This document shows, piece by piece, positions 41,731 to 43,067 of a stretch of DNA of 64,000 nt (position 1 is the first letter of the stretch; every line of letters starts with the position of its first letter). Location: contig JAFXKT010000002.1 in the NCBI GenBank assembly GCA_017531585.1, forward strand, positions 1-64,000. The letters are read 5' to 3'. This stretch comes from Candidatus Saccharimonadota bacterium. GTDB lineage: Bacteria > Patescibacteriota > Saccharimonadia > Saccharimonadales > Saccharimonadaceae. The notes beneath the pieces are model-generated. The model saw only the letters and a program-made list of their open reading frames with translations, did not search any database and was not told the origin of the DNA. The translations under genes and the position numbers were made by a program.

Positions 41731-41790
41731 TATAATATAAGCATCCGAGAGAAAAAGACGAGCTTGCTCGTCTTTTTTAGAGGATGCGCC
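41731..41790 (+). ncRNA. Candidate mini-transcript with promoter and terminator
   Basis: TATAAT (41731-41736) is followed within about 20 nt by a terminator: GACGAG/CTCGTC with a CTTG loop and TTTTTT (41757-41778). The hairpin has U-runs on both strands and can also stop minus-strand transcripts. GCATCC (41741-41746) and GGATGC (41782-41787) can close a larger stem around it. If transcribed, the RNA would be only about 35 nt. Confidence 0.4.
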
Positions 41791-42072
41791 ATATTACGCC
41801 GAATGGTATAATATAAGCATGTAGAGCGCAGCTCTAGGAACTACGCTCTGATAAATTTGGTTTAGAGTCTTCGCCTAACGGCGTTGACTCTTTTTATTCT
41901 TCGTCACTCGGATACCGAGTTTAACTTCCACTCTCCACCATTTCAGGCAGATTGTCATAGCCATAACCTTTCTCACGGACTCTAGTAGAGCCTAGAATAC
42001 TTTTCATTAAGCCCGTGCGAGTATAACTGTCAGGCTCAATTACTTGAATAACGGGGCAAACCTCAGTCCCGT
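41752..42072 (-). ncRNA. Candidate minus-strand structured RNA with a pseudoknot
   Basis: A promoter on the minus strand (TTACAA-like -35 and TATAAT, 42079-42108) would give a transcript starting near 42072. Three pairings are visible: A, CACGGGACT with AGTCCGTG (42065-42073/41974-41981); B, GAGCCT with AGGCTC (42032-42037/41988-41993); C, CCCGT with ACGGG (42051-42055/42012-42016). A closes the domain, and B and C interleave, so the inner part would be a pseudoknot. The first U-run terminator on this strand is near 41752. I could not match it to tmRNA, RNase P, 6S or SRP RNA. Confidence 0.45.
41807..41895 (+). ncRNA. Candidate small RNA (about 77 nt) with own promoter and terminator
   Basis: TATAAT (41807-41812) is followed by an RNA from about 41819 to 41895. 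A 5' region can fold as GAGC/GCTC or AGAGCG/CGCTCT. The end is a terminator with GAGTC/GACTC and CGCC/GGCG stems plus TTTTT (41865-41895). The 14 bp TATAATATAAGCAT are identical to those of the mini-transcript promoter 76 bp upstream. No plausible peptide is encoded. Confidence 0.5.
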
Positions 42073-42108: not shown

Positions 42109-42181
42109 GCGGAAGCATGATGATTATATGGGGTAGATTTCGAAAAACATGAGCATGATGTTTGCATTTGCTTTTTGGTGA

Positions 42182-42332
42182 TATAATTAAAATGTCTTAA
42201 GCTATATCATTAAAGTCGGATTATTCTATGCATCGCCGAAAGAAAACGGCACCGCATAGCAGAAGTTCGGCGAACAGTCCGATTTTTGTGATATGGCTTA
42301 AGACACCTTGCGGTGTCGTTTTTTATTTATTA
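42182..42332 (+). promoter_or_regulatory. Promoter, pseudoknotted leader and terminator upstream of orphan gene 42352 (riboswitch-like)
   Basis: TATAAT (42182-42187) begins a leader with an 18-bp closing stem, TGTCTTAAGCTATATCAT (42193-42210) with GTGATATGGCTTAAGACA (42288-42305). Inside, AAAGTCGGA pairs with TCCGATTT (42212-42220/42278-42286). TCGCCGAA (42233-42240) pairs with TTCGGCGA (42266-42273), and CTATGC (42226-42231) with GCATAG (42254-42259); these last two interleave as a pseudoknot. An intrinsic terminator GACACC/GGTGTC plus TTTTTT (42302-42323) shares GACA with the closing stem, so the two can compete. No known riboswitch class was recognised. Confidence 0.6.
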
Positions 42333-42351
42333 GTGCAGAGAGGAAAAGACT

Positions 42352-43005
42352 ATGATCCCAGGATTTAGTGAACGAAAACTGGCTAAAAAAATAGCGCATT
42401 CTCGTGGATTAGAGAAGGCAAAATACGCTTTAAAAGATTCGCTGCTTGGTATTACTTCTCAATTTGAAGATGTTTTTGCTTATCAAAATCTAGTTGTTGT
42501 CTTCTATGATTGGTATAGAACGCTTATAGTGCAGGCGCTTGGAAGAGACTGCTATAGAGAATGGGCTGAACTTTTAGTAAATAACCCTTCTGGAATAAGA
42601 TACTACACTATTAGATTATATGCTATTACTCTTGGAGTAATGAAAAGGAACGAAGAAGTAACAAGGGGAGAAGTGATTGATGCCGATGCGTTTCTAGATG
42701 CAAGAACGCGTCTTTTGAGACTAAAAGAGTCAGAACGAAATGAAATGAGGCAAGTGTATGATACTTTCTTGTGGTGGTATGATTCGGGGTTTGATGTTGC
42801 GGTTCTTGATCCGAATAGAATGCTAGAGTTAATGAAGGCAGTTGTTAATACGACGTATATGTTTAGCGATAAAGAAATGATAAATCTTATAGTTACGGGT
42901 ATGCCGATTGGGAGAGGCTTGGGTGCCGGCCATTTGTTTGATATCTCGCTACGGAAGGCATGTGCAGAAGCTCGCATAGCATATAATACGCTAAAAGCTA
43001 TATAG
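42352..43005 (+). CDS. Orphan protein controlled by a riboswitch-like leader
   Basis: The 217-residue soluble protein is largely helical (FVYQNLVVVFYDWYRTLIVQALGRDCYREWAELL-like) with no signal peptide, TM or motif that I recognise. GAGG lies 8 nt before the ATG. Codon use is more AGA/AAT-rich than in neighbouring core genes. It sits between a structured leader with a terminator and ftsA, which has its own promoter, so it is a single-gene unit. If the leader senses a metabolite, this gene should act on it, but the sequence does not say which. Confidence 0.7.
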   Translation: MIPGFSERKLAKKIAHSRGLEKAKYALKDSLLGITSQFEDVFAYQNLVVVFYDWYRTLIVQALGRDCYREWAELLVNNPSGIRYYTIRLYAITLGVMKRNEEVTRGEVIDADAFLDARTRLLRLKESERNEMRQVYDTFLWWYDSGFDVAVLDPNRMLELMKAVVNTTYMFSDKEMINLIVTGMPIGRGLGAGHLFDISLRKACAEARIAYNTLKAI

Positions 43006-43067
43006 CGTTAAGTGCCTTTGTGCAGCTTATTTAGGAACGCTATTGAAAGTGTTATAATATACCTAAC

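Follow-up and report, generated by a model that had tools for sequence, protein, structure and literature searches.

A pseudoknotted leader RNA with a co-evolving antiterminator strand, probably a transcription attenuator, in Saccharibacteria and related groups

The window, by which we mean the whole 64,000-nucleotide stretch of Saccharibacteria DNA analyzed here, contains a strongly folded 151-nt segment that lies between a promoter and an orphan gene, which raises the question of what this segment does for the gene that follows it. The structure is real and goes far beyond chance: its fold energy is −53.9 kcal/mol, compared with −29.1 ± 3.4 kcal/mol for 200 dinucleotide-preserving shuffles (z = −7.3). 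An initial annotation had described the segment as a riboswitch-like RNA with a pseudoknot and a competing terminator, and every pairing that it named was found in the sequence where it had been placed.

All of the features lie on the forward strand. The −10 box TATAAT (42182–42187), preceded by an extended −10 TG at 42178–42179, stands 6 nt ahead of the presumed +1 at 42194, from which the leader RNA would run through the terminator to 42325 (E = 8.6e-21 against the whole genome with covariance model R1 and 6.5e-19 with R2, both described below). The closing stem, P1, pairs 42193–42210 with 42288–42305 over the 18 bp claimed initially, including two G-U pairs, and extends further through 42212–42220 and 42278–42286. 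Inside it, the P2 strands CTATGC (42226–42231) and GCATAG (42254–42259) are crossed by the P3 strands TCGCCGAA (42233–42240) and TTCGGCGA (42266–42273), so that P2 and P3 form a pseudoknot. The intrinsic terminator, GACACC-TTGC-GGTGTC-G-TTTTTT (42302–42324; hairpin, 42302–42317; U-tract, 42319–42324), shares a GAC(A) with the end of the P1 3′ strand, as had been noted. What had been missed is a strand in the P3 loop that we call M (AAACGGCACCGCA, 42244–42256), the 3′ end of which is overlapped by the second P2 strand. M can pair with T′ (42309–42321), which consists of the end of the terminator loop, the terminator 3′ arm, and the first U's. A ribosome binding site (RBS), AGAGAGG, follows at 42337–42343, and the cargo gene, encoding a 217-aa orphan protein, occupies 42352–43005, with its ATG 27 nt past the U-tract. 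As in the initial annotation, a promoter precedes the RNA, and an orphan gene with its own RBS comes after it.

A −10 box stands just ahead of 103 of the 107 distinct elements and includes the extended TG in 79; in 83, exactly 6 nt separate this box from the first P1 base. The control gave 28 of 330, with no TG. Because the spacing is nearly fixed, the leader RNA very probably begins with P1. At the other end, the start codon lies a median of 42.5 nt past the terminator (minimum, 13), and the gene starts within 45 nt of it in 46 of 82 cases. Many members, including the window element, therefore have no room for a second promoter, and expression should require read-through. The leader has in this respect a mark of attenuators, an intrinsic terminator that separates the gene from its sole promoter.

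The stretch of 5′ untranslated region (UTR) past the terminator can pair with the RBS or start codon in 35 of 70 testable members (z = 7.5 for a member's own partner) and may add a translational layer, of which the window element gives no clear sign. UTR hairpins past the terminator mask the RBS or start codon in, for example, L092, L130, L112, L132, and L123, and the masking strand is often complementary to T′ as well, which suggests a coupling of read-through with translation. A further T′ complement occurs in the 5′ UTRs of 37 of 104 members. A third M copy in the 5′ UTR, M2, gave a weak signal (17.5 versus 16.4 for permuted partners) and was kept as a subset feature. A leader peptide was considered by eye and rejected, as the ATG within GTGAATGGA is not conserved, some members having AACGGA.

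Compensatory changes occur in relatives for P1, P2, P3, and the terminator, which excludes a chance match for each of them, and all of the helices include G-U pairs. In alignment-free tests of own versus permuted partners, P1 scored z = 34, P3 scored z = 25.7 (96 elements), and P2 scored z = 6.3 (106 elements; 5.0 in a rare-core subset). In an alignment of 78 distinct rows, double changes were found at all 22 modeled P1 pairs, and the proportions of paired cells were 95% for P1, 87 to 91% for inner P1, 80% for P2, and 99% for the terminator helix, percentages that favor the tested structure because the alignment was fitted to it. P3 was 96.6% paired in the seed alignment, and P3 flanks M in essentially all members. 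The pseudoknot proposed initially is thus supported by covariation in relatives; P2, which completes it, is its weakest part, being clear in many members and doubtful in a group of multicopy surface-protein leaders.

The pairing of M with T′ is the key part of the leader. M was complementary to its own T′ over 9 to 17 bp in all 96 elements first tested. The complementarity reaches into the hairpin loop and the U-tract and is therefore longer than the terminator stem; in the window element, 13 contiguous M-T′ pairs stand against a terminator stem of 6 bp. Across the 96 elements, own partners had an M-T′ score of 30.0, whereas permuted partners scored 24.3 (standard deviation [SD], 0.34) and shuffled sequence scored 15.4. 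The result was repeated in 16 held-out matches from outside the R2 training set (29.0 for own partners versus 17.6 for permuted ones; SD, 1.2), nearly all of them found by R2, a model that does not include the M-T′ pairing. In an alignment not fitted to M-T′, 92.8% of the cells were paired, with 61 double changes. The extra M-T′ pairs covary with M and not with the terminator 5′ arm, examples being AAGCG/CGCTT, GGG/CC, GGCAACTCGC/GCGGGTTGTC, and GGGCAGCTACGT/GCGTGGCTGTCC, and the co-evolution holds even among wholly different terminator sequences. In genomes whose copies differ from one another, M fits the terminator of its own copy (30.5 versus 17.5 in the window genome). Together, this co-evolution and the fit of each M to its own T′ among differing copies argue for M-T′ as a cis antiterminator pairing, the own-terminator fit in multicopy genomes being the strongest evidence for action in cis. 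A conserved antiterminator pairing that excludes the terminator is a further feature of terminator/antiterminator attenuators.

The window genome (1.01 Mb, 6 contigs) carries a second copy. A descriptor scan for terminator, M, P1, and P3 over this whole genome (1.04 Mb of sequence) gave four hits, of which the window element ranked first with a score of 107. A second real element, at G000:C4:54030-54176 (L201:15030-15176) and so outside the window, was also found independently by R2 (E = 4.5e-8), and the two remaining low hits scored about as high as the single hit in a reversed control. Behind the second copy lies a gene for a 592-aa protein, by its sequence apparently a DNA methyltransferase in which a cytosine-5 type and an adenine type are fused, and about 3.3 kb on there is a tRNA gene.

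Some 25 relatives of the leader turned up when 199 genomes of its family were searched at the DNA level; these relatives were not linked to the 217-aa gene. With E ≤ 0.01 as the limit, model R1, built from 11 of these relatives, had matches in at least 106 of the 394 family genomes, spread over at least 27 of the 61 genera, counts that include the weakest matches, inspected in part; some genomes have at least 8 copies. These numbers are lower bounds because genomes were sampled and 8 candidates per genome were scored. Further matches were found in other families of the order, elsewhere in the class, and outside the class within the phylum. Among 380 genomes from across the phylum, the broader model, R2, matched in at least 22, 20 of them credible and five in other classes. 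When 84,980 species were scanned with an exact pattern, at least 19 contigs matched, almost all from Saccharibacteria metagenome-assembled genomes. We took two model matches as false positives (L153, a lone terminator hairpin, and L154, with no M-T′ pairing) and discounted opposite-strand matches at the same places as a product of the near-palindromic fold. A viral origin was rejected, since the RNA patterns had no match in IMG/VR and the 217-aa protein no relatives there or among phages.

An Rfam search and a study of covariation among homologues, two of the checks proposed with the initial annotation, returned no known class and covarying pairings, respectively. At the window element, Rfam gave no match even at E ≤ 5, and when ten other members were searched at gathering thresholds, an unrelated tRNA was all that Rfam 15 returned; neither search gave a T-box match. 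The open-licence PMC papers that we searched held no description of such a leader class. The leader is apparently a member of an undescribed class that is widespread in Saccharibacteria and related groups; the initial annotation had recognized no known riboswitch class in it and had ranked it as the likeliest undescribed regulatory element.

We then considered the genes behind these leaders. The 217-aa orphan has no Pfam match, one weak PHROG match (E = 0.011), and no PDB relative; its best match in the other family genomes has E = 0.036, and no reliable structure could be predicted for it (mean pLDDT, 32.6). Near-identical RNA precedes unrelated cargo genes in near relatives, so that the leader is not peculiar to the orphan gene, and both a toxin-antitoxin arrangement and a leader dedicated to one gene were rejected because the downstream gene is not conserved. 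Judged from their sequences, the downstream genes mostly encode secreted or membrane proteins, pilins, and DNA methyltransferases: a strongly hydrophobic segment occurs within the first 70 residues of 50 of the 82 downstream proteins, compared with 29% of 393 genome open reading frames, and the recognizable families include type IV secretion system (T4SS) pilins, DUF4352, host-exposed lipoprotein Ltp, TM2, and several DNA methyltransferases and restriction enzymes. One leader subgroup is repeatedly paired, across families (L109, L111, L112, L124, L130, L135, L147, and L009), with a conserved membrane protein of 75 to 80 aa that is probably TM2-like (MKDRKTYKILT...FDEAMAKRGFTNTN). The multicopy genomes (L084 to L103) have their leaders ahead of large secreted paralogues, of which several are nearly identical at the N terminus, possibly a surface-antigen family; one locus has a tandem pair of leaders (L084:257-572).

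The leader and its gene appear to have been gained together. In two relatives, G094 and G183, the whole cassette of promoter, leader RNA, and gene (42140–43034) is absent from the same site, and the counterparts of window positions 42139 and 43035 are separated by just 16 bp (in G183, at the ftsA site). On this comparison, the window unit is a clean joint gain of promoter, RNA, and gene. In G183, a near-identical leader lies elsewhere in the same intergenic region (contigs C108 and C66; L227 and L228), upstream of a small membrane protein and a DnaK-like gene, and C66, which bears the other flank, also has a gene of J-domain-like look. Separately, a window stretch of about 62 bp (41745–41806), which contains a terminator-like hairpin (GACGAGCTTGCTCGTC and a T-run) and is flanked by a repeat of TATAATATAAGCAT, is missing from the same place in G094.

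Taken together, these results make it probable that the leader is a 5′-leader transcription attenuator, off by default, with M-T′ as its antiterminator. Transcription would start at the first P1 base, and the nascent RNA would fold into P1 and P3, with P2 completing the pseudoknot, holding M in the apical loop. The terminator would then form, and most transcripts would end near 42324 as free RNAs some 130 nt long. Alternatively, M, freed from P2 or brought to the emerging terminator, would displace the 6-bp terminator stem by pairing with T′ and so let RNA polymerase continue into the gene. The M-T′ duplex has a mean energy of −20.8 kcal/mol, and the M-T′ fold is less stable than the terminated fold by a mean of 11.8 kcal/mol (range, 2.6 to 22.3; 18 for the window element) in a calculation restricted to nested pairs, where P1 is lost because it cannot coexist with M-T′. 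Termination is therefore expected by default, and M-T′ pairing would depend on a factor, on a kinetic route, or on P1 being kept through a three-way-junction geometry. We infer that it might occur with P1 open in part, or with P3 folded back on P1 at the junction, and that the balance in the cell would be set by a trans factor: an RNA-binding protein, the state of RNA polymerase, or, less likely, a small ligand. A small molecule is no likelier as the trigger than a protein, an RNA, or the state of the elongating polymerase, and may be less likely.

The initial annotation had proposed ligand- or factor-dependent attenuation, and the attenuation is supported, with a co-evolving antiterminator added to the terminator. 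The ligand part has so far found no support. In a metabolite riboswitch, a small molecule would bind the pseudoknot or junction and lock M in P2, turning the gene off. Its general topology is that of pseudoknot riboswitches with a terminator/antiterminator platform, and the M-T′ fold costs just 3 to 8 kcal/mol in some members. However, among 76 members, there was no strongly conserved unpaired core outside M, T′, the helices, and the U-tract; the U-tract aside, the only strongly conserved unpaired bases are two A's beside M, and these pair with the U-tract in M-T′. The lack of a conserved unpaired aptamer core makes a classical metabolite riboswitch less likely, and a stem switched by a ligand would be expected to be shorter than P1 with its 18 bp or more. 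No metabolic theme was found among the 82 downstream proteins, a regulon of surface proteins, pilins, DNA methyltransferases, DUF4352, TM2, and others, and no Rfam class matches. We regard this reading as unlikely.

Equally unlikely, in our estimate, is constitutive attenuation, in which the leader would fix a low expression of acquired genes and respond to no signal. The very diverse cargo, the cassette-like gain, and the lack of a conserved sensor site all fit such a device, but a fixed terminator needs neither a co-evolving antiterminator nor a pseudoknot, yet both have been kept across the phylum. Somewhat less credible again is a trans-acting stable small RNA, in which the terminated product, closed at both ends, would pair with other transcripts through loop M or its 3′ arm. 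Its 5′ end is paired from +1, its 3′ end is the terminator, M is displayed in the apical loop, and the UTR features described above (T′ complements and masking of the RBS) could serve such pairing; against this, M fits its own terminator and not those of differing paralogues, and the RNA sits directly ahead of a gene with which it was gained as a unit. That the inverted repeats are merely RNA-like and mark a recombination site or transposon end is very improbable, for although RNA and cargo are gained together and several contigs of multicopy genomes end within a few hundred bases of a leader copy, as if assembly had been broken by repeats, P1 begins 6 nt past a −10 box in most members, every helix has compensatory changes and G-U pairs, the terminator and RBS follow in order, and no target-site repeat or far-end signature was seen at the window insertion.

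The leader marks candidate controlled genes (surface proteins, secretion pilins, and DNA methylases) across many Patescibacteria genomes and offers exact, testable pairings. To our knowledge, almost nothing is known of gene control in Saccharibacteria and related groups. The switch of Patescibacteria between host-attached and free cells has been described as being under completely unknown mechanisms (PMC11665869). We put forward tentatively, as something that may well prove wrong, a regulatory RNA class across Patescibacteria in which each copy has its own co-evolving antiterminator in a pseudoknotted loop and no metabolite is sensed; surface, pilus, and DNA-modification cassettes would then open together under some general factor of the cell or state of the polymerase, such as might differ between host contact and free swimming. 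A loop strand complementary to a terminator arm also provides a general search key for sequence-variable leader RNAs that ordinary sequence models miss.

Comparison with known systems places the leader among the attenuators. By its sequence, it has the features that define terminator/antiterminator attenuators, and it lacks the tested features of metabolite riboswitches and of type III toxin-antitoxin RNAs. The type III RNA ToxI is similarly a pseudoknotted RNA followed by a terminator and then a gene, but the RNA described here lacks tandem repeats and is not followed by a constant endoribonuclease gene, the 82 downstream proteins belonging to many unrelated families. The c-di-GMP riboswitches (GEMM) likewise form multicopy leaders ahead of surface and pilus genes, whereas the present class has no structural or sequence match in Rfam. 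The fluoride, ZTP, and preQ1 riboswitches share an H-type pseudoknot that competes with terminator formation; the leader described here differs in having no conserved ligand pocket that we could find and no Rfam match, a very long closing stem, and helices most of whose sequences are free to vary. The leader would work like the Bacillus-type attenuators (TRAP-controlled trp, PyrR-controlled pyr, and T-box leaders), which also combine a 5′ leader, an intrinsic terminator, and a mutually exclusive antiterminator with genes reached by read-through only. In contrast to these, the present leaders, with no matching Rfam family, precede cargo genes that are unrelated to one another and carry the antiterminator strand inside the loop of a pseudoknotted hairpin that is closed by a long stem from +1.
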